Shown: positions 4,453 through 63,094 of the stretch, piece by piece | How the letters are laid out: each line of letters opens with the position of its first letter | How positions within the stretch are numbered: the stretch's first letter is position 1 | Source of the DNA: Amphibacillus jilinensis Y1 | Lineage (GTDB): Bacteria; Bacillota; Bacilli; Bacillales; Amphibacillaceae | Length of the DNA: 64,000 nt | Reading direction: 5' to 3' | Assembly: GCF_000306965.1 (NCBI RefSeq) | Contig: NZ_JH976442.1 | Span: 8,415-72,414 of the forward strand | Translations under genes and position numbers: made by a program | The notes under the pieces: model-generated | Told to the model about the DNA's origin: nothing | Database searches by the model: none | Seen by the model: only the letters and a program-made list of their open reading frames with translations

Positions 4453-4583
4453 AATCAGTGGGCATTTTTGCTCTTTCCCCACTGATTGAAACAACATATT
4501 AACGCCCGTTATTTATCGCCTAAACAGAAGGGATCTGCTCTTTATTTTGAGGCAGGCATTTTATAACGGGTATCTGTGATAAA
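4453..4583 (+). repeat. Dispersed intergenic repeat, copy A
   Basis: First complete member of a repeat family that recurs through the window. Its parts in order are: a 5' hairpin with arms AATCAGTGGG and CCCACTGATT (4453-4487); a spacer; a long stem in which CGCCTAAA pairs with TTTTGAGGC and the outer CCCGTT pairs with AACGGG; and a terminal TATCTGTGATAAA mini-hairpin. In other copies the outer pairing is GTCCGT/ACGGAC, so this copy carries compensating changes. It lies between convergent htrA and the acetyltransferase genes. Confidence 0.8.
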
Positions 4584-4590
4584 CGATTCA

Positions 4591-4622
4591 TTCATAAAAG
4601 ATTCCCCATTATCTTTTATGAA
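4591..4622. terminator. Perfect 12-bp inverted repeat, probable terminator
   Basis: TTCATAAAAGAT pairs with ATCTTTTATGAA around an 8-nt loop between convergent genes. The T/A composition fits a weak bidirectional terminator after htrA. Confidence 0.45.
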
Positions 4623-4633
4623 TTTAACATAAA

Positions 4634-4661
4634 TCCGCTCATCTTATCAATGGTGAGCGGA
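4634..4661. terminator. Bidirectional terminator of convergent htrA and acetyltransferases
   Basis: TCCGCTCA pairs with TGAGCGGA (12-nt loop), followed by T-rich sequence on both strands, 45 bases after the end of the minus-strand acetyltransferase gene. Confidence 0.6.
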
Positions 4662-4705
4662 CTTAACTTTTAATCAATTGCCTCACATTTACTCAACATG
4701 GAGAG

Positions 4706-5164
4706 TTAGTTGAGATTTTTCGATTTTTCAAATAACATATCAACATGCATAATGTCATCTTCTAAATAATGATCAGAAATCGGCTTAAAACCAAACGATT
4801 GATAAAATTTAAGCAAATAGACTTGCGCATGAATTTTAATTTGATTTTCTTTCCAATCTTCAGTAATGGTCCTTATTGCTTGATCGACTAGCTTACGACC
4901 ATAGCCTTGTGCTCGATAAGTTGGATTAACCATAATTCGACCAATCGAAGCATAGCTGTCAAGAACACCTTTAGGAATTAAGCGTGCATAAGCAACCACT
5001 TCATCCCCTTCTTTTGCAAATAGGTGGACACATGTTTGATCAATCCCATCTACTTCTGGATAAGCACAGTTTTGTTCAACAACAAAAACAGCCACTCGAC
5101 TTTGCAAAATGTGATAAAGTTCATCTAAAGCTAATTGCTCAAATGTTTTAGCTTCCCAATACAT
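4706..5164 (-). CDS. ElaA-family GNAT N-acetyltransferase (second tandem copy)
   Basis: Acetyl-CoA-dependent N-acetyltransferase of unknown substrate, 152 aa. The N-terminal half carries the ElaA hallmark RVAVFVVEQNCAYPEVDG, followed by the GNAT core: the ARLIPKG strand, the acetyl-CoA loop IGRIMVNPTYRAQGYGRKLV and the C-terminal FYQSFGFKPIS. Its ATG at 5164 lies inside the 3' end of the preceding paralog (17-base overlap), so expression is coupled. The two proteins share layout and many motifs, which indicates a tandem duplication. The cellular target of ElaA proteins is not established. Confidence 0.85.
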   Translation of the reverse strand: MYWEAKTFEQLALDELYHILQSRVAVFVVEQNCAYPEVDGIDQTCVHLFAKEGDEVVAYARLIPKGVLDSYASIGRIMVNPTYRAQGYGRKLVDQAIRTITEDWKENQIKIHAQVYLLKFYQSFGFKPISDHYLEDDIMHVDMLFEKSKNLN

Positions 5165-5615
5165 TTAAATCCGCCTCCAATAACATATCAACATGCCAAA
5201 TATCATAATCTAGATACGGTTCTGATATAACACGGAAGCCAAAGGAACGATATAACTTTTCTAAATAGGCTTCAGCTTGAATTTTAATCACCGGTTCCCC
5301 CATGTTAATTAATAAATGCCTCAAGCCTTTTTCTAACATCATCTTACCATAACCGTAGCCTCTTTCTGTTGCTTTTACAATCACACGACCAAAAGAAGCC
5401 TCAGGATAAAAATGTCCACTTGGGATTAAGCGCATATAAGCGACAATTTCATTACCCTTCTTTAAAAATAAATGATTGGACATTTGATCGTAATTATCAA
5501 AGTCTTGGTAGTGGCAGTTTTGTTCAACGATAAAAGTATCTGTACGCAATTTGGCTATTTCATACCACTCCCTATTGTCTAATTCATTAAAGCTTTTAAG
5601 CCTCCAGTTTAACAA
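5148..5615 (-). CDS. ElaA-family GNAT N-acetyltransferase (first tandem copy)
   Basis: 155-aa paralog of the following gene, with RTDTFIVEQNCHYQDFDNYD, MRLIPSG, FGRVIVKATERGYGYGKMML and LYRSFGFRVIS. The start is taken as TTG at 5613-5615, preceded by AAGGGGTG at a suitable distance, because homologs begin at the WxLKSF segment; a longer frame from about 5657 lacks a ribosome site. It is the first gene of a two-gene unit and reads away from repeat copies B and C, which occupy its promoter region. The substrate is unknown. Confidence 0.82.
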   Translation of the reverse strand: MLNWRLKSFNELDNREWYEIAKLRTDTFIVEQNCHYQDFDNYDQMSNHLFLKKGNEIVAYMRLIPSGHFYPEASFGRVIVKATERGYGYGKMMLEKGLRHLLINMGEPVIKIQAEAYLEKLYRSFGFRVISEPYLDYDIWHVDMLLEADLNVLGS

Positions 5616-5701
5616 GACATCACCCCTTAAATTCTCTCTATTAGTAAACGAGCACAATAAAATATATGCTTGTCCACTTATTTGCGATTAAATGAACTAA
5701 C

Positions 5702-5832
5702 AATCAGTGGGGTTTTCGTTTTTCTCCTACTGATTGTTAGTTGAATAAATCAGGACATTAGCTCCCGCCTAAATAGATGACTATGCTCTATTTTGAGGCG
5801 GACCGTTTTACGGACGGTTAACTGTGATAAAA
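5702..5832 (+). repeat. Dispersed intergenic repeat, copy B
   Basis: Near-consensus copy: 5' hairpin AATCAGTGG...CTACTGATT, the segment GTTGAATAAATCAGGACATTAG, CCGCCTAAATAG pairing with CTATTTTGAGGCGG, then TTTTACGGACGGTTA and CTGTGATAAAA. It stands in tandem with copy C between divergent genes. Confidence 0.85.
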
Positions 5833-5841
5833 CGAACCTTC

Positions 5842-5980
5842 AATCAGTGAGAGTGTTCTCCTCGCACTGATTGGTAGCTGAGTGAATCAGGACATTAGCG
5901 ACCGTTAACGCCACTCGCTTAATTGACCAACTCTGTCTTTTTTGAGACAGGCGTTTTACGGACGGTTAACTGTGATAAAA
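5842..5980 (+). repeat. Dispersed intergenic repeat, copy C
   Basis: Tandem neighbour of copy B, ten bases apart, same orientation. The central stem is different in sequence but still paired (CTGTCT with AGACAG; AACGCC with GGCGTT), which is a sign of selection on structure. It ends with the common TGTGATAAAA, about 30 bases before the next start codon. Confidence 0.85.
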
Positions 5981-6010
5981 TGATCATAACAAATTTGAAA
6001 GGATTGTGGT

Positions 6011-6877
6011 ATGGAAATGACTAGAATTGGTTTGATTGGAACAGGTGTAATGGGAAAGGGTATCGGTTTAAATCTTATCCGCGCAGGTCATGAACTCCAC
6101 CTTTATACACGAACAAAGGAGAAAGCTAAAACGTTAATAGAGCAAGGTGCCACTTGGCATGATCGAATCCCAACCGTTGCGGAAAATTGTCAAGTGATCC
6201 TAACCATTGTTGGCTATCCAAGTGATGTAGAAGACATTTATTTCGGTTCGACAGGCATTATTGCAAATGCAAAACCAGGCAGTCTTCTAATTGATATGAC
6301 CACTTCAAAACCTGCACTTGCAGAAAAAATTGCTATAGAAGCGCAACATCAGCAATTAATCGCTTTGGATGCACCCGTATCAGGCGGGGATATCGGTGCA
6401 CAAAACGGAACGCTTTCTATTATGGTCGGCGGTGATCAAACTGGTTTTATACATGCGCGACCTTTATTTGAGATCATCGGTGAGAATATTATCCATCAAG
6501 GACCCGCTGGAGCTGGACAGCATACGAAGATGTGTAATCAAATAACCATCGCTTCTAATATGATTGGCGTTTCAGAAGCAATGGCTTATGCGAGAAAAGC
6601 GGGACTAAATCCGGATCAAGTATTAAAGAGCATTACCTCAGGTGCAGCAGGAAGTTGGTCGCTCTCTCATTTAGCACCAAGAATGATTAATGAAGATTTC
6701 AGCCCAGGATTTTATGTCAAACACTTTATTAAGGATATGTGTATCGCCCTCGAGACCGCAGAAGAAATGGAGCTTTCTACTCCTGGATTACAACTTGCCT
6801 ATCAACTTTATCAACAATTGGCGGAAGCGGGCGAGCAAGACAGTGGAACACAAGCCTTAATCAAACTTTTCAACTAA
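6011..6877 (+). CDS. NAD(P)-dependent beta-hydroxyacid dehydrogenase (3-hydroxyisobutyrate dehydrogenase family)
   Basis: Cytoplasmic oxidoreductase of 288 aa that oxidises a beta-hydroxyacid or reduces a tartronate-semialdehyde-like substrate. Visible motifs are the Rossmann loop IGLIGTGVMGKGIG (about 6-19), the substrate loop DAPVSGGDIGAQNGTL (about 120-135) and the catalytic Lys173 in GAGQHTKMCNQ. The family includes GarR, MmsB and B. subtilis YkwC, to which the size and motifs are close; the exact substrate cannot be read. It is monocistronic, starting at ATG 6011 after AAAGGA and ending before a strong terminator. Confidence 0.88.
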   Translation: MEMTRIGLIGTGVMGKGIGLNLIRAGHELHLYTRTKEKAKTLIEQGATWHDRIPTVAENCQVILTIVGYPSDVEDIYFGSTGIIANAKPGSLLIDMTTSKPALAEKIAIEAQHQQLIALDAPVSGGDIGAQNGTLSIMVGGDQTGFIHARPLFEIIGENIIHQGPAGAGQHTKMCNQITIASNMIGVSEAMAYARKAGLNPDQVLKSITSGAAGSWSLSHLAPRMINEDFSPGFYVKHFIKDMCIALETAEEMELSTPGLQLAYQLYQQLAEAGEQDSGTQALIKLFN

Positions 6878-6918
6878 GGTTCGTCCATGTTTGTCATTTG
6901 TTAATCAATCGCTTATAT

Positions 6919-6971
6919 AAAAAGCCTATCACGAATGCAGATGTTCCAAAGGCATTCATGATAGGCTTTTT
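6919..6971. terminator. Strong bidirectional terminator
   Basis: AAAAAGCCTATCA pairs with TGATAGGCTTTTT, extended by GAATGC/GCATTC, between the dehydrogenase and the convergent minus-strand gene. Confidence 0.85.
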
Positions 6972-6986
6972 AAGTTATGTCAAACA

Positions 6987-7289
6987 TTATTGTTTTCGAA
7001 GACTGTTTTGATACTGAGCAACTACCCATGCCAAATCATCATTACCATACACCTGTAAAACTTCGATTAAAAGTGGTGTATCAATCTCATCTGCTTGCTC
7101 CGAAGCTACCGTATGATCGATACTTTCAACCAACTTGTCTAATCCCTTTTGATGCGGATATGCCTGTTGATAAACGACGTATGGATCTAATTGATGATTA
7201 ATGCACCATTGCGCAAACAAGAGAATCATCTGATCTTCCCCCGCTTGGTATTGCTCGATAATATATTGCTCACGTTCTTTTTCATTCAT
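6987..7289 (-). CDS. Conserved hypothetical protein (100 aa)
   Basis: Small soluble acidic protein with no signal or membrane segment. It begins MNEKEREQYIIEQYQAGED after a GAGGTGA ribosome site and appears helical throughout (FAQWCINHQLDPYVVYQQAYP). I recall similar short helical proteins in Bacillaceae but cannot assign a family or function. It is a single gene between a terminator and the divergent trhO. Confidence 0.7.
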   Translation of the reverse strand: MNEKEREQYIIEQYQAGEDQMILLFAQWCINHQLDPYVVYQQAYPHQKGLDKLVESIDHTVASEQADEIDTPLLIEVLQVYGNDDLAWVVAQYQNSLRKQ

Positions 7290-7487
7290 AGTGAATCACC
7301 TCATCTGTCAAAAATATAACGTCTACAACAGTGAATTGCAAATTTCATCAACTATTGAGACTTTTTAACTTAAACAACTAAAAGGTTGAAAAAGTAATTT
7401 GAATTACTTATAATTAGAGATTGCAAGAGACTCATGATTACCCCTACATCCGTATCTTGCAAATACGATAAATAGGTGGTTAGAAAA

Positions 7488-8456
7488 ATGGAAAATTATC
7501 AAGTATTATTATACTACAACTATGTCAATATTGATGACCCTGAGAGATACGCTGAAGAGCATAAAACATTTTGTGACTCCCTAGGACTTAAAGGGCGCAT
7601 CCTTGTTGCTAAAGAAGGGATCAACGGAACGGTCTCCGGAACGATTAATGCCACACAGGCCTATATGGATGCTATGCATGCTGACCCTCGCTTTAGTGAG
7701 ATGCCCTTTAAAATTGACACAGCCGATGGACACGCTTTTAAAAAGATGAAAGTTAAGCCTCGACCGGAACTTGTCACGCTACGGTTAGGAGAAGAGGATA
7801 TTAACCCTCGTGAAGTGACTGGCAATTATCTAGAACCCAAAGCATTTTACCAAGCGATGAAAGATGACAATACGATTGTGATCGATGCGCGTAATGATTA
7901 CGAATATGATCTCGGACATTTTCGTGGTGCAATACGTCCAGAAATTCGTACTTTTCGTGAATTACCACAATGGATTAAAGAGCATAAAGAAAAATTTAAG
8001 GACAAACGTATCTTAACTTATTGTACCGGCGGTATTCGTTGTGAGAAATTCTCTGGTTGGTTGCTTGAACAAGGCTTTGAAAATGTCAATCAACTTCATG
8101 GAGGTATTGCAACTTATGCTAAAGATACGGAAACCAAAGGACAGCTTTGGGATGGTAAGATGTATGTTTTCGATGAACGCATTAGCGTTCCGATTAATCA
8201 GGTTGAACACGTCATTGTTGGTAAAGATTACTTTGATGGTACACCTTGCGAACGCTATATCAATTGCGGGAATCCTGAATGCAACAAGCAAATTATTTGT
8301 TCAGAAGAAAACGAGCATAAATATTTAGGTGGTTGTACTCATGCATGTCGTACACACCCACGCAATCGATATATTGACCAAAATCAGTTAACAAACGATG
8401 AAGTTGAAGCTCGCTTAAGTGCGATCGCTAAAGAAGAACAACATAACGCCATTTAA
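7488..8456 (+). CDS. trhO: tRNA uridine(34) hydroxylase TrhO, rhodanese family
   Basis: Oxygen-dependent enzyme that makes 5-hydroxyuridine at the wobble position of tRNA, the first step to mo5U in Gram-positive bacteria. ATG 7488 is used because AGGTGG is 7-8 bases upstream; an in-frame GTG at 7476 is inside that site. The 323 residues comprise an acylphosphatase-like N-terminal domain (about 1-95), a rhodanese domain with catalytic Cys179 in [12 protein letters not shown], and a cysteine-rich C-terminus ([26 protein letters not shown]), all typical of the YceA/YbfQ family. Confidence 0.93.
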
Positions 8457-8498
8457 AAGTTAAGACGAGGAGATTTCCTAAGAGAATATACAAAAAAC

Positions 8499-8533
8499 AG
8501 TGGGTAAGGTTATCAGCAGATGATCTTACCCAC
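8499..8533 (+). terminator. Terminator after trhO
   Basis: AGTGGGTAAG pairs with CTTACCCACT around a short loop about 40 bases after the stop codon; the following tract is T-rich but broken. Confidence 0.6.
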
Positions 8534-8637
8534 TATTTATGGTAGCGTGAAGTGAAGGAAAACGCGAGGCCTCTTTTCTGATATTAACCAATAGTTTTGA
8601 TTCATTCCTTTTAACGATACCATAATAAACTTTCACT

Positions 8638-8745
8638 TTAATCAATGGGCCATTTCATTCATCTCCCACTGATGGGTCGTTGAGGGAATCAAAACATTAG
8701 CGTCCTAGCTCCGGCTTAAAATAGATGAACTCTGCTCTCTATTTT
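8638..8745 (+). repeat. Dispersed intergenic repeat, copy D (degenerate)
   Basis: Recognisable by ATCAATGGGCC...CCCACTGAT, GTTGAGGGAATCAAAACATTAGCGTCC and ATAGATGAAC...CTCTCTATTTTTTGA. The 3' GGACGG and GTGATAAAA parts are lost. It lies in the promoter region of the glutathione peroxidase gene. Confidence 0.6.
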
Positions 8746-8795
8746 TTGACATTGTTATTAGAGCTTGCTATCTTTGAATTAAGGAGGTGCTTCGC

Positions 8796-9269
8796 ATGAC
8801 CGTTTATGATTTTACCATTACAACAATAGATGGCGCAGAAAAATCACTCGCTGATTATCGTGGCAGTGTACTATTAATCGTTAATACGGCTACAAAGTGC
8901 GGTTTAAAAAATCAATTTAATGGCTTACAACAACTCTATGATGATTTCAAAGATCAAGGATTTATTGTGTTGGGTTTTCCATGCAATCAATTTTTACATC
9001 AAGAGCCTGGAAGCAACCAACACATTCAACAAACTTGTCAATTGAACTTCGGTGTTAATTTTCCGATATTTAGTAAGATTAAGGTGAATGGAAAAGATGC
9101 ACACCCCCTTTATCAATATTTAACCAATCAAACATCAGGGGTGTTAGGTGGGGCAATCAAATGGAACTTTACTAAATTCCTTATTAATCGCAACGGTGAC
9201 GTTGTTAAACGATTTGCTCCTACCACAGAACCGGAAGAGATGGTTGAAGATATACAAGTTTTGTTTTAA
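8796..9269 (+). CDS. Glutathione peroxidase family thiol peroxidase
   Basis: Peroxide-reducing enzyme of 157 aa in the Cys-GPx (BsaA/GpxA-like) group; in Bacillaceae such proteins usually take electrons from thioredoxin rather than glutathione. ATG 8796 follows AAGGAGGTG. Motifs are NTATKCGLKNQF with peroxidatic Cys35 in place of selenocysteine, GFPCNQF and the KWNFTKF tryptophan-asparagine motif. The gene is likely monocistronic or co-transcribed with the following methyltransferase, 115 bases downstream. Confidence 0.9.
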   Translation: MTVYDFTITTIDGAEKSLADYRGSVLLIVNTATKCGLKNQFNGLQQLYDDFKDQGFIVLGFPCNQFLHQEPGSNQHIQQTCQLNFGVNFPIFSKIKVNGKDAHPLYQYLTNQTSGVLGGAIKWNFTKFLINRNGDVVKRFAPTTEPEEMVEDIQVLF

Positions 9270-9384
9270 AGCTCTCATGACTAAAGACATAAGATTCTTG
9301 GGAAGAGAGTCTACTTGATTGATCATGGTATAAACTACAAACAGCGGTTTCTTTGTATCTTTTAAAATTTTAGGAGGAATTTTT

Positions 9385-18840: not shown

Positions 18841-19259
18841 AGGTCGGGACAAAAGAGTAACTAAATAAAAAAAATCCGAACATTAATGTCTCAATGTATA
18901 TAGCGCTTCGGCAAAACACTTCGCTTTCACTCTCCCTAGCACAAGGGAGACATCTTGGTAAACGCAGTGTCTCCCTAGCCGTGGGCACGGCTTCGGGCCT
19001 ACAGGATGTAGGTCAGTTAGACGTTGTCCCAGGACGGGACGGGGTTAGTCTAACATTCCTTCACTGTGTGAAGAAGGACACTTCACACGATGGATCGTCA
19101 GCTCGAGCTGTTCTCACAGGATAAGGAAAGCGTCCTCGATCGTACATCGCACGAAGAAAATCGTTCGATATTTTCGAGGAGTCTACGTGTTTTACCTACG
19201 CTTAGTTGAGAATGGTCGGATATTAAATTTCACTATTTAGTTATGTCACAGACTGGTCT
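18841..19259. repeat. Hairpin-array element with about 45-bp terminal inverted repeats
   Basis: Imperfect inverted repeats (GGTCGGGACAAAAGAG...AACTAAATA at the left, TATTTAGTT...GTCACAGACTGG at the right) enclose a run of perfect short hairpins: TCTCCCT/AGGGAGA, GCCGT/ACGGC, CCTACA/TGTAGG (18998-19012), GTTAGAC/GTCTAAC enclosing GTCCC-AGGAC-GGGAC (19016-19054) and CTTCAC/GTGAAG. It is GC-richer than its flanks and has no gene. Parts recur inside repeat copies J and K with compensating changes. It lies between the DUF1456 remnant and the end of the riboflavin operon. Confidence 0.75.
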
Positions 19260-24987: not shown

Positions 24988-25020
24988 CGGCGCGTTTTAC
25001 GAACTGTTATCTGTGACAAT
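24988..25020 (+). repeat. Dispersed intergenic repeat, 3' fragment E
   Basis: Only the last segment remains: GGCGCGTTTTACGAACTGTTATCTGTGACAAT, next to the toxin promoter. Confidence 0.5.
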
Positions 25021-25034: not shown

Positions 25035-25099
25035 CACATTACGATAGAAAGCTTATAGGGTGGTAGTCATTCCTTCCCCGAGGGGAGGTGATGCCTATT

Positions 25100-25183
25100 A
25101 TGACCATCTATGAAAGTTTAGTCATTATGATTAGTTTTGCTACACTGATTGTGATGATAACGAAACATGATGATCATAAGTAA
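25100..25183 (+). CDS. BsrG/TxpA-type small membrane toxin (27 aa)
   Basis: A 27-residue peptide beginning MTIYESLVIMISFATLIVM and ending in KHDDHK. The start, the hydrophobic centre and the charged tail match the annotated 'putative holin-like toxins' of Bacillaceae; B. subtilis BsrG begins MTVYESLMIMI. The strong Shine-Dalgarno AGGGGAGGTGAT lies upstream; an in-frame ATG at 25091 is too close to it. The 5' leader contains ATAGGGTGGT (25055-25064), able to pair with the terminator arm ACCACCCTAT (25186-25195), as in type I toxin mRNAs that hide their ribosome site by long-range folding. It is likely toxic to the membrane if freely expressed. Confidence 0.8.
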   Translation: MTIYESLVIMISFATLIVMITKHDDHK

Positions 25184-25323
25184 AAACCACCCTATCTAAG
25201 CAACTTTGCTTGAAATAGGGTGGTTCTCCCAATTAATAAGGATTACCACTCTTGGGCAATCTGTCGTAAACCGTTAAGGTGTTAGCCGCACCTTAGCGGT
25301 TACTTTTATTTTTGTGATGATCT
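25180..25323 (-). ncRNA. Predicted antisense antitoxin RNA overlapping the toxin 3' end
   Basis: A minus-strand promoter (TATAAT at 25330-25335, TTTACT 16 bases upstream) would start an RNA near 25323. It would contain the hairpin ACCGCTAAGGTG...CACCTTAACGGT (25270-25300) and end at the bidirectional terminator, whose minus-strand side has a TTTTT tract. About 140 nt with 3' overlap to the toxin mRNA is the same design as RatA, SR4 and SR5. Confidence 0.6.
25185..25225. terminator. Bidirectional terminator shared by toxin mRNA and antisense RNA
   Basis: AACCACCCTAT (25185-25195) pairs with ATAGGGTGGTT (25215-25225), with an inner AAGCAA/TTGCTT stem. The minus strand has the better U-tract. 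Confidence 0.8.
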
Positions 25324-27070: not shown

Positions 27071-27137
27071 AACGCCTCTTTAATCTACTCTCTATTTTGA
27101 GGCGGAAGTTTATGGACAGTTAGCTGTGGTAAAAGCG
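27071..27137 (+). repeat. Dispersed intergenic repeat, fragment F
   Basis: The 3' half only: ACGCCTCTTTAATC, CTCTCTATTTTGAGGCGGAAG, TTTATGGACAGTTAGCTGTGGTAAAA. It lies between divergent pncA and the chemoreceptor gene. Confidence 0.65.
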
Positions 27138-28963: not shown

Positions 28964-29012
28964 CCTTCGACCCGCTTCTATTTTGCGCTAGGTGCTTTAT
29001 GGACGCTTAAAG
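28964..29012 (+). repeat. Dispersed intergenic repeat, fragment G (degenerate)
   Basis: TTCTATTTTGCGCTAGGTGCTTTATGGACGCTTAAAG matches the 3' half of the consensus loosely. It directly follows the chemoreceptor stop codon. Confidence 0.4.
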
Positions 29013-38276: not shown

Positions 38277-38301
38277 TCACACGAAAAATTTAGAAATCAT
38301 T

Positions 38302-38390
38302 AATTGTTAGTTGAGTGAATCAGGCCATTAGCGTCCGTTATCACCCACCTTAATAGATTTAACGTTTTATGGACATTATGTTGATATAAA
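38302..38390 (+). repeat. Dispersed intergenic repeat, copy H (partial)
   Basis: Contains TTAGTTGAGTGAATCAGGCC, ATTAGCGTCCGTTATC, CACCTTAATAGATTT and GTTTTATGGAC. The 5' hairpin and part of the central stem are lost. It lies between convergent genes. Confidence 0.65.
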
Positions 38391-40829: not shown

Positions 40830-40943
40830 CTTATCATAGATAACCACGTTCGACTAGACATAGAGCGTAAATCTTATTTATTTAGACGAGCGCTAAGGAT
40901 CTGACTTACTCAACTATGACCGCTACCTTTCTGATTGAAGGTT
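40830..40943 (-). repeat. Dispersed intergenic repeat, inverted degenerate copy P
   Basis: Read on the minus strand: CCTTCAATCAG, AGTTGAGTAAGTCAG, TTAGCG, TCTAAATAAATAAGAT, GCTCTATG and GGTTATCTATGATAAG in the family order. It is the only copy I found in the opposite orientation and the most decayed. Confidence 0.5.
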
Positions 40944-41080
40944 TGTTTATGCAGACGGAAAAAGCATCTATCTATTTCTTCGATTTTTGCCTTGTCACAA
41001 CATGTTCAATCACCAGCATTATGACGTTGCGCTCGTAAGCGCTTAAATTAACTTTTTTCAAAAAAAGCATTAAAAAAGAC

Positions 41081-42888: not shown

Positions 42889-42902
42889 TAAAATGAAACT
42901 TC

Positions 42903-43027
42903 GATTCAGTGGGCATTTTCGTTCTTCGCCCACTGATTTGAACCAAGACATTACTGTCCCACCTAAATAGATTAATATCTGCCCTCTATTTTGAGATAAG
43001 GCTTTACGGACAGTTATCTGTGATAAA
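42903..43027 (+). repeat. Dispersed intergenic repeat, copy I
   Basis: 5' hairpin CAGTGGGCATTTTCGTTCTT and CGCCCACTG, then ACTGTCC pairing with GGACAGT (compensated relative to GTCCGT/ACGGAC), CCTAAATAG, CTCTATTTTGAG and TTATCTGTGATAAA. It lies 15 bases after the amtB stop. Confidence 0.82.
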
Positions 43028-43655: not shown

Positions 43656-43748
43656 ATCACCCCTCCTTTTCAATCTACATTACAGATATATTAACCCTTA
43701 TCGAAACGCTTTAAACATTAACCACATGATGAAAACGAAACTTCAACC

Positions 43749-43978
43749 TTCAATCGGTGAGCTGGGAGACTACAAGATGTAGGTCATGCAGACGTTGCCA
43801 CAGGACGTGGCGATCTTAGTCTGTAACCCTTCTTAAGGACGTGCCGGTTCTAGTCTGTAATCCTTCTGCATTTTTAGTCTACGACCTTACTTAGTTGAGT
43901 GAATCAGCCCATTAGCACCCTCTTCGAAAGATTGAACGCTACTCTAGGTGTTTTACGCGTCATTATCTGCGAAAAATG
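43749..43978 (+). repeat. Dispersed intergenic repeat, copy J with inserted hairpin array
   Basis: Starts with CAATCGGTGAG (5' arm), then instead of the simple hairpin holds GACTACA/TGTAGGTC (43768-43785), CAGAC/GTCTG enclosing GCCAC-AGGAC-GTGGC (43789-43823), further TTAGTCTACGACCTTAC units, and then resumes with TTAGTTGAGTGAATCAGCCC, ATTAGCACC and TTATCTGCGAAAAA. Its 3' end overlaps the last codons of thiE. Confidence 0.7.
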
Positions 43979-47204: not shown

Positions 47205-47411
47205 TTAGCGGACGAGGTCTACAAGAAGTGGCGGTCTTATTCTGTAATCCTTCTTAAAGATGTGAAGCTTTTAGTCTACGATCTTACCCATCCTCCGATT
47301 GATCGTTGGGCGGATCAGAAGATTAACATGCGTTATCTCCCACCTAAACAGATTTTTTCTCTTCTCTATTTTAGGACTAACGCTTTACAGATACTTATCT
47401 GTGATAAAAAT
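47205..47411 (+). repeat. Dispersed intergenic repeat, copy K with hairpin-array remnant
   Basis: GAGGTCTACAAGAAGTGGCG, TCTTATTCTGTAATCCTTC and TTTTAGTCTACGATCTTAC resemble the array in copy J. The repeat core follows with GTTATCTCCCACCTAAACAG, TTCTCTATTTTAGGA, GCTTTACAG and TTATCTGTGATAAAAA. It lies between lepB and the flavodoxin gene. Confidence 0.65.
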
Positions 47412-49427: not shown

Positions 49428-49500
49428 TCTTTTATCACTCCTTAATATATTAGCCTCTAGATTAACTATTCCTTTTTTATCAATTATTAAACATAAAACC

Positions 49501-49545
49501 TTTAATCATTGAGCATTTTGCTCCTACTAATGGGTCGTTGGTTAC
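49501..49545 (+). repeat. Dispersed intergenic repeat, 5' fragment L
   Basis: TTTAATCATTGAGCATTTTG, CTCCTACTAATGGGTCGTTG matches the 5' hairpin and the start of the spacer; the rest is missing. Confidence 0.5.
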
Positions 49546-52373: not shown

Positions 52374-52385
52374 AGCTAGAATTAT

Positions 52386-54963: not shown

Positions 54964-55077
54964 ATGGATTCCAAATATCAACAAATTCCTCTTGCTTCAC
55001 CGTTTGTCATAACCTCCTATCCAAAGACATATACTAACACCACTGTGCTTATTACTTTACTTATCTTTTATTTGTGA
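54964..55077 (+). CDS. Possible 37-aa peptide upstream of the iron ADH gene
   Basis: ATG 54964 after AGGTGA opens a frame MDSKYQQIPLASPFVITSYP followed by KTYTNTTVLITLLIFYL and TGA. It has a hydrophobic C-terminal third. It ends 29 bases before the next start codon. It could be a leader peptide or the truncated N-terminus of a membrane protein; the family is not recognised. Confidence 0.3.
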   Translation: MDSKYQQIPLASPFVITSYPKTYTNTTVLITLLIFYL

Positions 55078-55106
55078 CCATTATATAAATAAGGAGGCGA
55101 TATAAA

Positions 55107-56279
55107 GTGAATAACTTTATCTTTAACAACCCTACAAAACTTATTTTTGGTAAGGATATGTTAAACCATTTAAAAGAAGAGATCCCCACTTATGGTAACC
55201 GTGTGCTACTCGTTTATGGTGGAGGTAGCATCAAGCGCAATGGACTCTACCAGGAAGTGCTTGATCTTTTAAATGAAATAAACGCTGAAATATTTGAGTT
55301 ATCAGGTGTCGAACCAAACCCACGCGTCACGACAGCGCGTAAGGGGATTGAGATCTGCAAAAATGAGCAAATTGATTTTATCTTAGCTGTTGGTGGTGGA
55401 AGCACAATCGACTGTGTCAAAGCTATTGCAGCTGGCGCCAAATCGGAGCATGACATCTGGGATATTGTTACAAAAAAATATCAAGCTAAGGATGCATTGC
55501 CGTTCGGAACTGTCCTTACGTTAGCAGCAACTGGTTCGGAAATGAATGCAGGCTCGGTGATTACGAATTGGGAAACAAAAGAAAAGCATGGATGGGGAAG
55601 TGCGGTCACTTATCCTAGATTTTCTATTTTAGATCCTACATATACATATACTATCCCACGCGATCAGACTGTATATGGGATCGTTGATATGATGTCACAT
55701 GCACTTGAACATTATTTCCATCACGAAACCAATACGCCATTTCAAGATCGGATGGTAGAAGGCTTATTAAAAACAGTAATCGAAACGAGCCCTAAACTGC
55801 TAGCTGACCTTGAAAATTACCAGCATCGTGCTACTATTTTATACTGTGGGACAATGGCTTTAAATGGGATGGTCAATATGGGCTATCAAGGCGATTGGGC
55901 AACACATAACTTAGAGCACGCTGTTTCTGCAGTTCACGACATTCCTCACGGCGGTGGGCTGGCTATTTTATTCCCAAACTGGATGAAGCACGTGCTAGAT
56001 GAGAACGTGGCACGTTTCAAAAAATTCGCCGAGCGCGTCTTTGACATTGAACAAGGTGCCCTTTCGGATCGCGAGGTTGCTATCAAAGGAATAGACGCTC
56101 TAAGCGATTTCTGGAAGTCAATCGGAGCGCCAAGTCGATTAGCAGATTATAATATTAATGAAGAAACCATTGCAGAAATGGCAGACAAAACAGTCACAGC
56201 GCATGCAAGCTTTGGTAATTTTAAAAAGCTAACACGCGAGGACTCTGTTGCGATTTATCAAGCAAGTCTAATCGAGTAG
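55107..56279 (+). CDS. Iron-containing alcohol dehydrogenase (butanol dehydrogenase/YqhD type)
   Basis: NAD(P)H-dependent alcohol/aldehyde oxidoreductase of 390 aa. It has [11 protein letters not shown] (NADPH-type glycine motif), [20 protein letters not shown], the metal ligands in [38 protein letters not shown]. Start GTG 55107 follows AAGGAGGCG. The last codons (Ile-Glu-stop) come from the 3' end of a group II intron remnant inserted at the gene end; the decayed paralog at 57812 ends at ...KASL. It likely reduces aldehydes in fermentation. Confidence 0.92.
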
Positions 56280-56680
56280 GGGGGTGATTAACCCCCGTCC
56301 CCTCACACCACCGTACATACCGTTCGGTATACGGCGGTTTCATTTAAGTCCAACGTGCAGTTTCGTATCTACCAAATAGACTTTTAAGTTCTTGACCTGC
56401 CCCCCAGTATTGATTATTAAGTGCTCGACCTAATATCGGGCTATGTGACGTCCGTCAATAGCCTTTCTCGTGTTCCCCCATTCCCATGCTTTACCTGGTT
56501 CAATACCACAACGAATCAGATTTTTCTTTTTCGTTGTGGTTTTCTTCCATTCTTTCCACCGAATCATTCGCAACCTTCTACTCACCCAGGCATCTAGCGC
56601 TTTGAATATAGAGGGGGGGTTCTGCTAATTGGTAATAACCTAGCCATCCCACTAAGTATTGATTAAGTGTCTCACTCCTT
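56271..56680 (-). mobile_element. Group II intron remnant (domains V-VI and maturase C-terminus)
   Basis: On the minus strand AACCGCCGTATACCG and CGGTATGTACGGTGGTG (about 56302-56341) form domain V. GGACGGGGGTTAATCACCCCC plus CTACTCGAT forms domain VI and the 3' end at about 56271. Upstream, 56345-56670 translates in pieces as LNQYLVGWLGYYQLAE, KALDAWVSRRLRMIRWKEWK, LIRCGIEPGKAWEWGNTRKA and LGRALNNQYW...KSLFGRYETARWT, the maturase/X domain of intron reverse transcriptases, with at least two frameshifts. The RT domain and 5' intron part are gone. Confidence 0.85.
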
Positions 56681-57401: not shown

Positions 57402-57457
57402 GGTGACAAATTATTATTAAGTAAGGTTGGCTTTCCCCAATTGAAAAGTACTGCGAC

Positions 57458-57496
57458 GAAATAATCCACTGAGGTATAGACACAGTGGATTATTTC
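57458..57496. terminator. Strong bidirectional terminator
   Basis: GAAATAATCCACTG pairs with CAGTGGATTATTTC, 55 bases after the small membrane protein gene. Confidence 0.85.
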
Positions 57497-57811
57497 CGTT
57501 TTATCCTTAAAATAGTCCCTTAGCTGCCATCGATAAAAAGAATGATATATCATGTTGATTTTCAGTCGATATCTTAACAATCATATATTCTTATAGCTCA
57601 TTTTCACTTCCTATACTGTTCCGATTAGATAATATTGTTCTCTAGGATCATTGGAATGAGTATTTAATGCGTTTGTTTTGAGAGTATAACAATCTAGAAC
57701 AACCGTTTAGTTTAATAGTCAACTCACCTAAAATCCCCCCTACACCTTACCGTTAATTCAATATTGGTTAAATGCATCGATGATAATCCTAATAGCATTT
57801 CGCTCACCACT
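57497..57811. other. Intergenic region without recognised content
   Basis: No frame with a ribosome site; the 3' part leads into an alcohol dehydrogenase remnant. Confidence 0.4.
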
Positions 57812-57952
57812 AAGGCATGGACAATTTTGGGGCCATCAAAAGAAACGATTGAAGTAATGGCAGATAAAACAGTCATTGCCAACCCTAGTTTCGGAAAGTT
57901 CAAACCACTTTCTCGAGAAGATTCAATCGCTATTTACAAAGCGAGTTTATAA
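57812..57952 (+). pseudogene. 3' remnant of a second iron alcohol dehydrogenase gene
   Basis: Reads TKAWTILGPSKETIEVMADK then TVIANPSFGKFKPLSREDSIA and IYKASL-stop, parallel to the C-terminus of the ADH at 55107 ([20 protein letters not shown]). The DNA differs enough that it is a paralog, not a fresh duplication. The rest of the gene is missing. Confidence 0.8.
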
Positions 57953-57958
57953 AAAAAC

Positions 57959-58106
57959 TTCAACCAGCAGCCGTTTTCGCGCTTCTCACATTGATTGGTA
58001 GTTGAGCGAAAAAGGACATTAGCATCCGCTAACACCCATTATAGATGGTCTCTTCCCACTATTTTCAGATGGGTGTTTTACCAACAGCTATCTATAGCTA
58101 TGAAAA
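57959..58106 (+). repeat. Dispersed intergenic repeat, copy M
   Basis: CAACCAGCAGCCGTTTTCG, CACATTGATTGGTAGTTGAG, ACATTAGCATCCG, then ACACCCAT pairing with ATGGGTGT and a terminal AGCTAT/ATAGCT mini-hairpin. Both pairings are changed on both sides relative to other copies. Confidence 0.7.
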
Positions 58107-58142
58107 AGATGGTGTGATTTTTTATCACATCATCTTTTTCAT
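58100..58142. terminator. Long perfect hairpin, probable terminator
   Basis: ATGAAAAAGATGGTGTGA pairs with TCACATCATCTTTTTCAT over 18 positions with one mismatch. Confidence 0.65.
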
Positions 58143-58319
58143 AGAACGAACACCCACCCCAATCTGTCAAAACGTATGACAGACCTCTGTTACATACGGA
58201 AACACAAACTCAGATTCGATGCGTTTCTTCCATTAAATATTATAGAAGAAATAGTTCTTAGTATAAAAATTTTTGATCAGCACATACTACTAAATATTAA
58301 TTATAGTAGGTGATAAATA

Positions 58320-58754
58320 ATGAATGAACAAGAACTTAAACAAACGATCATAAAAATATTAGATGATCATCAAATCGGAACGATGGCTACTATCGCTAAC
58401 CAACGCCCCCATTCTCGTTATATGACTTTTTTTCATGATAACTTCACTCTTTACACCGCTACATCCAAAGATACACATAAAGTAGACGATTTACGTCAAA
58501 ATCCATATGTGCATATTATCATTGGCTATTCATATGAAGGAATTGGCGATCAATATTTAGAGATTGAGGGACAATGTGAATTACATGATGAACCCTTGAT
58601 TAAAGACCGATTATGGAATGACAAATTAAAGCATTGGTTTTCTGGTCCAGAAGATCCTAATTATCTAGTACTGAAAATTACCCCTTCTGAGTTCCATCTT
58701 AAAAATACCAATGACCATCAAAACCATCGTTATAAACCAACGATATCAGATTAA
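58320..58754 (+). CDS. Pyridoxamine 5'-phosphate oxidase-like flavoprotein (general stress protein 26 family)
   Basis: Split-barrel FMN-binding protein of 144 aa. QIGTMATIANQRPHSRYMTF (about 18-37), YTATSKDTHKVDDLRQNPYVHIIIGY and YLEIEGQCELHDE match the family of YdaG/GSP26-type proteins. They bind FMN or F420-like flavins, and their substrates are unknown. Start ATG 58320 lies after TAGGTGATAAATA. Single gene followed by a terminator. Confidence 0.88.
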   Translation: MNEQELKQTIIKILDDHQIGTMATIANQRPHSRYMTFFHDNFTLYTATSKDTHKVDDLRQNPYVHIIIGYSYEGIGDQYLEIEGQCELHDEPLIKDRLWNDKLKHWFSGPEDPNYLVLKITPSEFHLKNTNDHQNHRYKPTISD

Positions 58755-58810
58755 AACAAGTGCTGTTATAGCCCCTATTTTAATCTAACTGCAACAGCCA
58801 CAACCTAAAA

Positions 58811-58846
58811 GTAGTATGTTTTAATCAAAAAAAACATACTACTTAG
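58811..58846 (+). terminator. Terminator after the PNPOx-like gene
   Basis: AAGTAGTATGTTTT pairs perfectly with AAAACATACTACTT around an 8-nt loop. Confidence 0.8.
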
Positions 58847-58906
58847 ACACCACAAACCTTATTATATCAAGGGTTGAAGTCTTAAAAAAACTTAGTTGTT
58901 TAATTA

Positions 58907-58924
58907 ATGTGAATAATTTCACAA
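58907..58924 (+). promoter_or_regulatory. Rex/Fnr-type operator upstream of adhE
   Basis: ATGTGAATAATTTCACAA matches the Rex operator pattern TTGTGAA-W4-TTCACAA in 17 of 18 positions and contains an exact TGTGA-N6-TCACA Fnr box. It is centred about 62 bases before the predicted start site. A second palindrome, TCACATTTATGTGA (58930-58943), is centred near -42. Confidence 0.7.
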
Positions 58925-58945
58925 ACCTGTCACATTTATGTGATT

Positions 58946-58971
58946 TTGTAAGCGCATACAGATGTTATGAT
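58946..58971 (+). promoter_or_regulatory. cre site overlapping the adhE promoter
   Basis: TTGTAAGCGCATACA (58946-58960) satisfies the cre consensus WTGNAANCGNWNNCW at every position. It overlaps the spacer before the -10 TATGAT (58966-58971), a position expected to give CcpA repression. Confidence 0.7.
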
Positions 58972-58999
58972 GAAATCAGAAAGAACGAGGGGGGATCAG

Positions 59000-59230
59000 A
59001 TGATATTAACAACATGGAAAGATTTTGGGACAGATGCAGAGTTCTATACGCAAGCAAACTTTGAAGAAGAAGTTAATGACAACTTCGAAGGTGTGTATTT
59101 TGAAGAGGGAAAAGACATTCCGAATTATATCTGGACAACACAATATGTTGTTGTCATTAAGAACAACACTAGAATGTTTAACGATGTCTCATTTGTTAAA
59201 GTTCCTCGTAACCCGTCGGTCCTTGTTTAA
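59000..59230 (+). CDS. Small protein of unknown function in the adhE leader (76 aa)
   Basis: ATG 59000 follows GAGGGGGGATC about 8 bases upstream and lies about 20 bases after the predicted transcription start of adhE. The acidic soluble protein starts MILTTWKDFGTDAEFYTQAN and ends VPRNPSVLV; it has no cysteine, signal or membrane segment. It ends 61 bases before adhE with no terminator between, so it should be co-transcribed and co-regulated with AdhE. The family is not recognised. Confidence 0.65.
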   Translation: MILTTWKDFGTDAEFYTQANFEEEVNDNFEGVYFEEGKDIPNYIWTTQYVVVIKNNTRMFNDVSFVKVPRNPSVLV

Positions 59231-59291
59231 GTGTTATTTTTTTGAACTCGTTTGCTCATTATTTCACATAAATTCTTAGGAGGGAAAACCT

Positions 59292-61898
59292 ATGGTCACA
59301 AAAGTCGAAAAGAAAAATGAAGTAAAAGAACCTACTGTAGCAGAAAGCATCGATGCGTTAGCAAATAACGCTCAGAAAGCTTTAAAAGAAATGAAAAAAT
59401 TAACACAAGAACAAGTTAATGACATTGTTAAAGAGATGGCATTAGCTGGTCTAGATCAACATATGTATCTAGCAAAATTAGCGGTTGAAGAAACCGGACG
59501 AGGTGTATATGAAGATAAAATTATTAAAAACATCTTTGCTACTGAATATGTTTATCACAACGTGAAATATGATAAAACAATTGGTGTCATCAGTGAAAAT
59601 GAACATGAAGGTATCGTAGAAATTGCCGAGCCGATTGGTGTTGTTGCCGGTGTAACCCCTGTAACTAATCCAACATCTACGACCATGTTCAAGTCTATCA
59701 TTTCTATTAAAACAGGTAACCCTATCATCTTTGCTTTCCACCCATCCGCTCAGAAATGTAGCTCTGAAGCAGCGCGTATTTTATATGAAGCTGCAGTTAA
59801 AGCAGGGGCTCCAGAGCACTGTATTCAATGGGTTGAAAAACCTTCAATTGAAGGAACACAAGCATTAATGAAACACCCTAAGGTAGCAACAATATTGGCT
59901 ACAGGCGGACCAGGAATGGTTAAGTCAGCTTATAGCTCTGGTAAGCCAGCACTTGGTGTAGGTGCAGGTAACGTACCTTGCTATATCAATAAATCAGCCA
60001 ATGTTAAACGAGCTGTCAATGACCTCATTTTATCTAAAACGTTTGATAACGGGATGATTTGTGCGTCAGAACAAGCGATGATCGTTGATAAAGAAATCTA
60101 TGATCAAGTAAAACAAGAAATGATTGATAACAACTGTCACTTCTTGACAGCAGCCGAAAAAACAAAAGTTGAAAAGCTTGTTATCAATGAAGATACTTGT
60201 GCCGTAAATCCAAAAATCGTTGGTATGAAACCAGTGAAAATTGCTGAGATGGCTGGCGTTAAAGTACCTGAAGATACAAAAATTCTAATTGCAGAACTTA
60301 CTGGTGTTGGACCAGATCATCCACTTTCACGTGAAAAATTAAGCCCAGTTTTAGCAGCATTTAAAGTAAATAATGCTGAAGAAGGTTTACAACGTTCTGA
60401 AGAAATGCTTGAATTTGGTGGTTTAGGGCACTCAGCTGTGATTCATGCAAGTGACCAAGAGGTTATTGATGCATTTGGTGCACGAATGAAAGCTGGTCGT
60501 CTGATCACAAATGCGCCATCTTCTCAAGGTGCGATCGGGGACATTTACAATGGTTATATTCCGTCATTAACATTAGGTTGTGGTTCTTATGGCGGTAACT
60601 CAGTATCTACAAACGTTGGTGCTATGCACTTAATTAATGTTAAAAAAATGGCGAGAAGGAATAATAATATGCAATGGTTTAAAGTTCCACCAAAAGTTTA
60701 TTTCGAAAAAAATTCAGTTCAATATTTAGCAAAAATGCCTAATATCACAAAAGCCTTTATCGTTACCGACCCGATGATGGTTAAACTCGGCTATGTCGAT
60801 AAAGTTCTCTATCACCTACGCAAACGCTCTGACTACGTACACTGCGAAATTTTCTCTGACGTAGAACCAGATCCATCTAAAGAAACAGTTATGCGTGGAG
60901 CAGAAGCAATGAATGCGTTCAATCCTGATGTTATTATTGCTCTTGGTGGCGGTTCAGCAATGGATGCTGCTAAAGGAATGTGGCTATTCCATGAACATCC
61001 AGAGACAGATTTTAATGGGATAAAACAGAAGTTCTTAGATATTCGTAAACGTGTTTACAAATATCCTGAATTAGGACAAAAAGCACAATTTGTTGCGATC
61101 CCAACAACATCTGGTACTGGATCTGAAGTTACTTCATTCTCAGTTATTACAGATAAGCAACAAAATGTAAAATATCCATTAGCAGATTATGAGTTAACAC
61201 CTGATGTAGCCATCATTGATCCACAATTTGTAATGACCGTACCAAAAGTAGTTACAGCAGACACTGGGATGGATGTGCTGACACATGCGATTGAAGCTTA
61301 TGTTTCTAATATGGCTAACGATTACACAGATGGTTTAGCTATTAAAGCCATTCAACTTGTATTTGAATATTTACCAAAAGCTTATCACAATGGTAGTGAT
61401 GAAGTGGCCCGTGAAAAAATGCATAATGCATCTACGATTGCAGGGATGGCATTCGCTAATGCTTTCTTAGGTATTAATCATAGTTTGGCACACAAACTAG
61501 GTGCAGAATTCCATATCGCTCACGGTCGTGCGAATGCGATTCTAATGCCACACGTTATTCGCTATAACGCTAAAAAGCCAAGTAAATTTGTTTCATTCCC
61601 TAAATACGAGCACTTTATTGCGGATCAGCGTTATGCTGAAATCGCAAAAGCGTTAGGCTTACCTGCTAAAACGACTGAAGAAGGTGTTGAAAGCTTAGTC
61701 AATGCTATTTATAAACTAGCTAAAGAGCTTAATATACCAATGAGCATTGCTGAAAATGGCGTTGACAAAAAAGATTTTGAAGCTAAAGTTGATTATTTAG
61801 CAGACCGTGCTTTTGAAGATCAATGTACAACAGCTAATCCGAAGTTACCACTCGTAACTGAACTAGCTGAGGTTTATCGCAACGCATTTAAAGGTTAA
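59292..61898 (+). CDS. adhE: Bifunctional acetaldehyde-CoA/alcohol dehydrogenase
   Basis: Reduces acetyl-CoA to acetaldehyde and ethanol with NADH. The 868 aa comprise an N-terminal acetylating aldehyde dehydrogenase (about 1-450; catalytic Cys in FDNGMICASEQA, NAD site GGPGMVKSAY), a linker and a C-terminal iron-dependent alcohol dehydrogenase (about 460-868; LGGGSAMDAAKGMW, HAIEAYVS, LGINHSLAHKLGAEFHIAHGRANA). It starts after AGGAGGG and forms spirosomes in other species. It disposes of acetyl-CoA from PflB. Confidence 0.97.
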   Translation: MVTKVEKKNEVKEPTVAESIDALANNAQKALKEMKKLTQEQVNDIVKEMALAGLDQHMYLAKLAVEETGRGVYEDKIIKNIFATEYVYHNVKYDKTIGVISENEHEGIVEIAEPIGVVAGVTPVTNPTSTTMFKSIISIKTGNPIIFAFHPSAQKCSSEAARILYEAAVKAGAPEHCIQWVEKPSIEGTQALMKHPKVATILATGGPGMVKSAYSSGKPALGVGAGNVPCYINKSANVKRAVNDLILSKTFDNGMICASEQAMIVDKEIYDQVKQEMIDNNCHFLTAAEKTKVEKLVINEDTCAVNPKIVGMKPVKIAEMAGVKVPEDTKILIAELTGVGPDHPLSREKLSPVLAAFKVNNAEEGLQRSEEMLEFGGLGHSAVIHASDQEVIDAFGARMKAGRLITNAPSSQGAIGDIYNGYIPSLTLGCGSYGGNSVSTNVGAMHLINVKKMARRNNNMQWFKVPPKVYFEKNSVQYLAKMPNITKAFIVTDPMMVKLGYVDKVLYHLRKRSDYVHCEIFSDVEPDPSKETVMRGAEAMNAFNPDVIIALGGGSAMDAAKGMWLFHEHPETDFNGIKQKFLDIRKRVYKYPELGQKAQFVAIPTTSGTGSEVTSFSVITDKQQNVKYPLADYELTPDVAIIDPQFVMTVPKVVTADTGMDVLTHAIEAYVSNMANDYTDGLAIKAIQLVFEYLPKAYHNGSDEVAREKMHNASTIAGMAFANAFLGINHSLAHKLGAEFHIAHGRANAILMPHVIRYNAKKPSKFVSFPKYEHFIADQRYAEIAKALGLPAKTTEEGVESLVNAIYKLAKELNIPMSIAENGVDKKDFEAKVDYLADRAFEDQCTTANPKLPLVTELAEVYRNAFKG

Positions 61899-61931
61899 CT
61901 TTCACTCCCCTATTTGAATATTTATATACCA

Positions 61932-61965
61932 AGAAGTCCTTCGTTCTAGTCGACGAAGGACTTCT
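61932..61965. terminator. Strong terminator after adhE
   Basis: AGAAGTCCTTCGT pairs with ACGAAGGACTTCT and is followed by CTTTTTG on the plus strand. It overlaps the last codons of the convergent small gene. Confidence 0.9.
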
Positions 61966-62194
61966 CTTTTTGTTCTAGTTGCTGCAATCGGTTTACATTA
62001 CGACTAATCAAGCTATCTAAAAACTGATCTATATCACCAGGAATTGGTGAATCTTCCGTTAAAACTAATCCTGCTTGACTACTTTTCAACAGCATCCATA
62101 ATAAATAGCTCACCCATTTACTTTGGGGCTCTTCTCCTACTATAGCAGCCTCTAGCTCGACTGCTAACTGTTGTAGCATATTTTCTGTGAACAT
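61946..62194 (-). CDS. Hypothetical protein (82 aa)
   Basis: Helical acidic protein beginning MFTENMLQQLAVELEAAI and ending QLEQKEKSFVD. ATG 62194 follows AGGGGGTGAGTG. The last codons form one arm of the adhE terminator. It is 10 bases downstream of the next gene and probably forms an operon with it. No family recognised and no membrane segment. Confidence 0.6.
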   Translation of the reverse strand: MFTENMLQQLAVELEAAIVGEEPQSKWVSYLLWMLLKSSQAGLVLTEDSPIPGDIDQFLDSLISRNVNRLQQLEQKEKSFVD

Positions 62195-62204
62195 CACTCA
62201 CCCC

Positions 62205-62750
62205 CTAACTCGTCACATTTAGTAACAACGGATTATCAACAGGTAAACCTTCTTCATCCCTATTACTATAATAGAAAGCATCTATTTTAAATTTATATTG
62301 CTCTTTAGTTGGCCAAGTCAACGTTAAATGTAAGGGTTCAGCTCGATCTGCTCCATTAACCTTCTCACCCAAATAGCTAAACCAATATTCTTCTCCCCCA
62401 TTTTGATGATCTTCTAAGAGCTGCCAGTTGGCTTTGATTTTTTGCTGATCTCTCCTATCCTTAGCTAATAAGTATTTCCCGGATATTTGATAACGAACAG
62501 AAGCATCTATCCTAACGCAAACTATTAGGTTTTCTAGTGGTTTGACTGTCCCATTAAGTATATGATAGCTCATATTTATACAAGACCATTCATCGCTTTG
62601 ATTTGATATATCAATTGACGAAGCCAAAAAAGAAATGACTTTATTAAAACTAGCATTTCGACTAGAATAATTTGATGCTTTTTCATAAAGTTCCTGCCAA
62701 CTACGATCCAAAGCTTCTAGTTTCGTCTTTACTTCCAACCATGATGTCAC
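62205..62750 (-). CDS. Hypothetical protein (181 aa)
   Basis: Soluble protein with an N-terminal helical part (MTSWLEVKTKLEALDRSWQE) and a beta-rich C-terminal half (VRIDASVRYQISGKYLLAKD, YWFSYLGEKVNGADRAEPLHL). The start GTG 62750 has GGAGGTG about 9 bases upstream. It is co-oriented with the small gene at 61946. No family recognised; no cysteine-rich or signal features. Confidence 0.6.
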   Translation of the reverse strand: MTSWLEVKTKLEALDRSWQELYEKASNYSSRNASFNKVISFLASSIDISNQSDEWSCINMSYHILNGTVKPLENLIVCVRIDASVRYQISGKYLLAKDRRDQQKIKANWQLLEDHQNGGEEYWFSYLGEKVNGADRAEPLHLTLTWPTKEQYKFKIDAFYYSNRDEEGLPVDNPLLLNVTS

Positions 62751-62948
62751 TGTTATACACCTCCATTACATTTTATAGTTAAATGGCTTTAATTATGATT
62801 GCTTTTATCTCTGCTCAGATCAATCATTTTTTTTAGAGGCACAACTTGTCCTTCTCTTTTGAAGTTATTCATGTTAACCTGTTCATTATTCATATAATCA
62901 GGATTGATATTCTCACTATCCGCTTTCTTAATTTACTTAAAAACGAAC

Positions 62949-63094
62949 CTTCAATCCGAGGCAATTTCGTTGTTCTCCTCCTGATTGCTAATTGCGTGAA
63001 TCAGGACATTAGCATCCGTTAGCTCCCGCCTAAATAGATTATATCTACTCTCTATTTTTAGGCGGGCATTTGACGGACGGCTATATGTGATAAA
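62949..63094 (+). repeat. Dispersed intergenic repeat, copy N
   Basis: Near-consensus 3' two-thirds: TGATTGCTAATTGCGTGAAT, CAGGACATTAGCATCCGTTAG, CCCGCCTAAATAG pairing with CTATTTTTAGGCGGG, TTTGACGGACGGCTATATG and GTGATAAAA. The 5' hairpin (TCAATCCGAGG...CCTCCTGATT) is weaker. Confidence 0.82.

Follow-up and report, generated by a model that had tools for sequence, protein, structure and literature searches.

A repeat family of Amphibacillus jilinensis and many other Bacilli, oriented by replication and probably mobile through single-stranded DNA

Single-strand repeat elements are best known from the Gram-negative REP/RAYT systems. Among transposons, IS608 and ISDra2 have subterminal hairpins on one strand with guides at the 5' foot, use the lagging-strand template, and keep the 5' targets TTAC and TTGAT, respectively (PMC6006769, PMC5934647). 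A third point of comparison is given by the bcr1 group A repeats, which are 147-167 bp in size, abundant and intergenic, with mobile-element features, a conserved fold and a TTTAT motif (PMC6542083, PMC2267715, PMC3446304). The repeat described here was noticed in a stretch of 64,000 nucleotides of Amphibacillus jilinensis Y1, which we call the window and which lies in contig 9 of the host genome (3.84 Mb, 30 contigs). It is about 160 bases long and has no coding capacity.

The first-pass annotation of the window had proposed at least 15 members of the family, 14 of them in the same direction and one inverted. A sequence profile recovered all 15 of these places, with 14 on the plus and one on the minus strand, three of them (24988, 28964 and 49501) being weak short fragments (Table 1). 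A covariance model trained on 17 copies gave ten matches in the window at E < 0.001, nine on the plus and one on the minus strand, and the core motif with up to three mismatches was found seven times in the window and never in shuffled sequence. The overlap of one copy, at 43.9 kb, with the 3' end of thiE was also borne out. The module order described as constant varies to some extent: Bacillaceae-1-type cassettes and other inserts interrupt the first hairpin or the linker, and some copies are without the central stem. The terminal TTATCTGTGATAA mini-hairpin is typical of the genus Amphibacillus and is not conserved in other genera. The starts of the copies had to be moved about 12 bases to the left of 'AATCAGTGGG', since the ends are ATAAA...ATAAA.

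Table 1. Copies of the repeat and associated features in the window (window coordinates), and sites at which one of two Amphibacillus species is empty. CM, covariance model.
Feature	Position	Strand	Evidence
Copy A, complete	4438..4583	+	CM 104 bits; orthologous copy in A. cookii L310
Copy B, complete; first of head-to-tail tandem pair, ATAAA common to copy C	5688..5831	+	Profile 113.5 bits
Copy C, complete; second of tandem pair	5827..5979	+	CM 128.8 bits
Copy, 3' end decayed	8627..8782	+	CM 66 bits
Weak 3'-end fragment	24990..25019	+	Profile E 0.003
3'-half fragment	27079..27133	+	Profile E 2e-8
Weak 3' fragment	28976..29009	+	Profile E 0.001
Copy without most of first hairpin and part of central stem	38286..38390	+	CM 45.6 bits
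Sole window copy in opposite orientation	40830..40949	-	CM 46 bits
Complete copy, linker shortened	42889..43027	+	CM 93 bits
Copy, first hairpin invaded by Bacillaceae-1 cassette; 3' end overlaps thiE	43740..43975	+	Sequence; core and 3' half, profile E 2e-6
Bacillaceae-1 RNA (RF01690) nested in the copy at 43740..43975	43769..43835	-	Rfam 71 bits
Copy, preceded by Bacillaceae-1-type cassette	47228..47408	+	CM 69 bits
Weak 5'-end fragment	49496..49540	+	Profile E 0.04
Complete but diverged copy	57949..58098	+	CM 66.5 bits
Complete copy, best of window	62938..63094	+	CM 149 bits
Clean empty sites	L079:3773 vs L306; L079:9437 vs L306; L295:3237 vs L037; L075:17122 vs L305		

Two other features of the window are recorded here in passing. 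A sub-threshold BsrG-like match with a short hydrophobic ORF (25040-25296), possibly a type I toxin-antitoxin locus, adjoins a repeat fragment, and an Rfam group II intron match (56271-56339), possibly a remnant, abuts the end of an iron-containing alcohol dehydrogenase gene.

Across the host genome the covariance model found at least 150 full-length copies, and the core word with up to two mismatches gave 186 matches, versus one for the reversed-word control. Sampled host stretches totalling about 1.6 Mb contained 292 distinct profile matches, a number that is no estimate of density, as most of these stretches were picked as copy-rich. When 137 full copies were aligned, conservation fell abruptly outside ATAAAACGAACC...CTGTGATAAA, so that the repeat starts and ends with ATAAA; this alignment revealed no terminal inverted repeats at the repeat ends, and the insertion targets had nothing recognisable in common beyond ATAAA. 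From left to right the repeat consists of a first hairpin, CAATCAGTGGG/CCCACTGATTG, a linker, a second hairpin, GTCCGT.../...ACGGAC, with an inner stem, and a short tail. Short forms without the whole central stem occur at three host loci (L011, L012 and L023), where a deletion between the direct repeats TCCGTTA and ACGGTTA may have removed it. No family of Rfam 15 matches the repeat itself, and a literature text search with the hairpin sequence returned no paper on the repeat. A match to a known Rfam family or MITE would have counted against the first-pass annotation; neither Rfam nor the inverted repeats expected of a MITE account for the family.

The repeat is not confined to the host. An exact 25-base left-end pattern was present in many genera of Bacilli, including, among the matches listed, Paenibacillus-named records as well as Niallia, Sporosarcina, Oceanobacillus, Lysinibacillus, Cytobacillus, Neobacillus, Peribacillus, Psychrobacillus, Gracilibacillus, Terrilactibacillus, Evansella and others, and nucleotide similarity alone gave a match in 26 of 301 sampled Bacilli genomes (15 of 119 genera). 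Using 35 copies, mostly from different species and genera, we counted 82 two-sided compensatory cells in the two hairpins versus 24.5 +/- 4.9 in shuffles, with 82 reached by none of the 500; slid controls also fell short of it. The two hairpins are thus kept by compensatory change across genera. The covariation is weak within the genus Amphibacillus alone and strong only across genera, as would be expected if structure matters at the time of movement and the copies then decay. The tested strands, folded as single-stranded DNA, were far better than shuffles (z = -6.6 to -8.3). These searches of the genome and its relatives, including the one with a covariance model that the first-pass annotation had called for, establish a real, genome-wide family present in many genera. 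A few Bacillaceae plasmids of the plasmid collection match the repeat, and the phage collection yielded no match. A Klebsiella grimontii plasmid record (CP079755.1, 221561-221624) matches the left end of the repeat over 64 bases, which could reflect transfer, chance or contamination.

Many copies carry a Bacillaceae-1 RNA (RF01690) inside or beside the first hairpin or linker. Of 45 cassette matches in the host (from three queries, partly overlapping), 41 adjoin the repeat, always on its upstream side and in one relative orientation per query, and Rfam confirmed the nesting in Sporosarcina, Cytobacillus, Terrilactibacillus, Filibacter and others. At least in the genomes examined, the Bacillaceae-1 RNA family is largely cargo of the repeat. 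A second Bacillaceae-1 match in the window (18998-19065) has no detectable repeat copy adjoining it. Two more cassette types, unlike Bacillaceae-1, were seen at the linker site in other genera, one at L166, L167, L188 and L203 and the other at L140, L157, L164, L175 and L194.

Evidence of movement came from the comparison of orthologous loci between the host and Amphibacillus cookii, an approach already suggested with the first description of the repeat. Clean empty sites were found in either species, each with exactly one ATAAA (Table 1). In one example the empty site reads ...ACTACACATAAAACTG..., and the other species has ACTACAC-ATAAAGCGAAAC...GTGATAAA-ACTG there. The intact single ATAAA at sites without a copy indicates that the repeats are precise insertions. 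Both the target and the precision can be read directly from these loci: insertion takes place at an ATAAA already present there (TTTAT on the opposite strand), and this pentanucleotide flanks one end of the repeat and closes the other. Tandem pairs are head to tail in eight of eight cases, with the ATAAA shared, and the tandem pair of the window at 5.7-6.0 kb (copies B and C) is a single copy in A. cookii. The mobility is thus real and directed to a fixed pentanucleotide, and the empty sites alone do not tell a 5-bp target duplication from a junction of the IS605 type.

The orientation bias seen in the window extends to the whole genome, where 228 of 272 copies point against the replication fork and 44 with it (p = 4e-31; leading strand assigned from GC skew, region C2:520-676 kb left out). 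Orientation flips together with the skew at dnaA/oriC, being plus to the left of C1:1,329 kb and minus to the right, with the exception of one minus copy at C1 1,310 kb. The bias was present in every arrangement of neighbouring genes: the ratio of copies against the fork to copies with it was 40:6 between convergent genes, 36:7 between divergent genes, 118:26 between leading co-directional genes and 26:3 between lagging co-directional genes. The same ratio was 69:13 in A. cookii and 34:1 in genome G005, with a skew switch at about 440 kb; in genome G194 it was 75 of 100 among the matches listed, with a switch no more than about 60 kb from a dif match and with the origin inferred from the orientation flip itself. 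In the last 0.7 Mb of one arm of G194 before dif, the orientation was mixed (11:13), a difference from the rest of the arm that is not significant (p = 0.15). The comparison of orientation with replichore that the first-pass annotation had suggested thus shows that orientation tracks replication in the host and in three other genomes, and in the host it does not follow the transcription of neighbouring genes, which strongly supports the assignment of the strand. One region of the host departs from this rule. On C2 the GC skew flips at the dif match (519 kb), and the repeats keep their pre-dif orientation for 157 kb to the end of the contig, so that in C2:520-676 kb (L100-L106, L066 and L067) 15 copies point with the fork and five against it. 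Forks running past dif could explain this unflipped orientation. Arrest by RTP/Ter was considered for this region and rejected, as the host has no RTP gene.

This near-constant pointing against the fork suggests that the repeat jumps through single-stranded DNA exposed at the fork. Together with ends like those of IS200/IS605, the fork-locked orientation favours a non-autonomous element of the single-strand HUH type, and we consider it probable (about 0.6) that the repeat is a non-autonomous mobile DNA element moved in trans by a Y1/HUH-type enzyme via the single-stranded lagging-strand template. On that template the repeat is bounded by TTTAT on either side and has a hairpin close to each end, with TAAC before both hairpins; the TAAC is conserved, and the unpaired guide-like TTA/GTTA columns vary little or not at all. 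The two cut sites are identical and the two guide-like motifs nearly identical, as a guide-pairing model requires. According to this model, the active strand, 5'-TTTAT^CCCGCATTAAC-(hairpin 2)-...-CAACTAAC-(hairpin 1)-GAAGTTTCACTTTAT^-3' (^, putative cut), would lie on the lagging-strand template and be single-stranded at the fork. Both hairpins would fold there and be bound by a Y1/HUH-type endonuclease, supplied in trans, and both cuts would be set by the TTA of TTTAT pairing with the guide-like TAA(C) at either hairpin's 5' foot. Once excised, perhaps as a circular intermediate, the repeat would be inserted after a TTTAT elsewhere on a lagging-strand template. Three parts of this scheme are inferred, namely the enzyme, the circle and the pairing of the guides.

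The search for the enzyme did not favour this reading. No autonomous relative combining a Y1 transposase with the ends of the repeat was found in the host or the surveyed relatives, and no RAYT gene was found in the host genome. The Y1 genes of the host are one intact ordinary IS200 and one broken copy; this IS200 was rejected as the mobiliser because it ends in ...GCAA on the right and has hairpins unlike those of the repeat. Its left flank is TTAT in three Amphibacillus copies and not in a fourth copy from a relative. Only one Y1 gene lay between repeat halves (L254:1240-2085, in a relative), and it was rejected as an autonomous parent, given that homologous ISs share the interior only (query 130-784) and not the ends. 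It belongs instead to an IS200-type element inserted into the hairpin 2 loop of a repeat copy, and homologues of this IS occur without the repeat in L264 and L242. Across 41 genomes of the family, Y1 genes do not track repeat copy number: genome G011 has 94 copies and one distant Y1, and G015 has nine copies and no Y1 transposase. The absence of a matching transposase, the Y1-less G015, the unflipped orientation beyond dif on C2, the ATAAA at both ends (which would suit a target duplication as well) and a guide shorter and closer to the cut than that of IS608 count against the HUH-type reading. The earlier proposal of spread by a single-strand mechanism like that of IS200/IS605, relative to the fork, is supported in its orientation, empty sites and end architecture, and the enzyme it named (RAYT or TnpA) is not, as no RAYT or TnpA element flanked by repeat ends came to light.

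An alternative is that a DDE transposase or a similar enzyme moves the repeat as double-stranded DNA, in the manner of a MITE, with a 5-bp duplication of ATAAA and a bias due to later selection against one orientation. The empty sites and the ATAAA at both ends fit such a duplication equally well, and the term MITE-like has been applied to bcr1 of B. cereus (PMC3446304, PMC3733652). Nevertheless we regard this as unlikely: terminal inverted repeats are absent, the bias is alike whatever the directions of the neighbouring genes, and it is also alike in well preserved and decayed copies, although selection after insertion should make it grow with decay. Recombination of a folded single strand by a tyrosine recombinase at a short ATAAA crossover, as for integron attC sites or phage CTX with Xer, would agree with the folded strand, the crossover-like pentanucleotide and the orientation fixed by replication. 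Recombinases of the attC/Xer kind usually need binding arms, and the targets of the repeat share nothing recognisable beyond ATAAA, which makes this quite an unlikely route, even if a 'site-specific recombination-like mechanism' with TTTAT has been proposed for B. cereus repeats, according to the passage of PMC6542083 that cites it. Still less probable is a retroelement, for which the 3'-terminal TTTAT of a nascent strand would prime the copying of a transcript ending in AUAAA by a reverse transcriptase of the host, for instance that of a group II intron. The conserved structure is compatible with RNA, the strand bias is linked to replication, and the group II intron trace at window 56271-56339 is in keeping with it, but precise 5' ends prevail (171 hits are intact at both ends, 76 at the 3' end only and 33 at the 5' end only, and cassette insertions account for many of the hits that are short at the 5' end), and the ATAAA at both ends would be left unexplained. 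That the bias is a mere by-product of gene orientation or uneven ATAAA supply, both of which are themselves strand-biased, can be practically dismissed, since it is contradicted in the host genome by the bias in all four gene arrangements and by an intergenic ATAAA supply that predicts 47% of copies against the fork, the opposite lean.

Under the favoured HUH-type reading, a wider picture can be drawn only tentatively, of a Bacilli-wide, transposase-orphan family transposed as a single strand, whose orientation archives fork direction, including past dif, and which spreads captured cassettes catalogued as Bacillaceae-1 RNA. Hundreds of replication-locked insertions are a natural record of fork direction and a means of testing where replication ends relative to dif. 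Such a family in Bacilli with no visible transposase raises the question of which enzyme moves the repeat, and Bacillaceae-1 RNA as an insert in a mobile element changes the reading of that Rfam family.

Among known systems, Bacillaceae-1 RNA (RF01690) is physically nested in many repeat copies in several genera and is the insert, not the repeat itself. REP/REPIN elements, which are tied to Y1 enzymes through RAYT, are likewise palindromic, intergenic and present in hundreds of copies. The present repeat differs from them in having no GTAG-type tag, in being asymmetric and about 160 bp long, in forming direct tandems versus inverted pairs, and in a host without RAYT. The closest described repeat is bcr1 (bcr1-bcr3 of the B. 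cereus group), in a comparison of published descriptions and not of sequences: size, high copy number, intergenic position, mobility, conserved fold and TTTAT at the ends are all alike, whereas bcr1 is described as specific to the B. cereus group and our repeat is present in many genera. No B. cereus-group plasmid in PLSDB matches the repeat consensus, though bcr1 is reported on plasmids, and we did not find a replication-linked orientation described in the bcr1 literature. With IS200/IS605 elements (IS608, ISDra2) the repeat shares subterminal hairpins on one strand, the lack of terminal inverted repeats, guide-like bases at the hairpin foot, insertion on the 3' side of a kept target of four to five bases that is present once in the empty site (TTTAT versus the TTGAT of ISDra2), and insertion into the lagging-strand template, which for the repeat is deduced from orientation statistics. 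It differs from them in carrying neither tnpA nor tnpB, in its much larger second hairpin and in the identity of both cleavage sites, and compared with IS608 its guide is shorter and nearer the cut.
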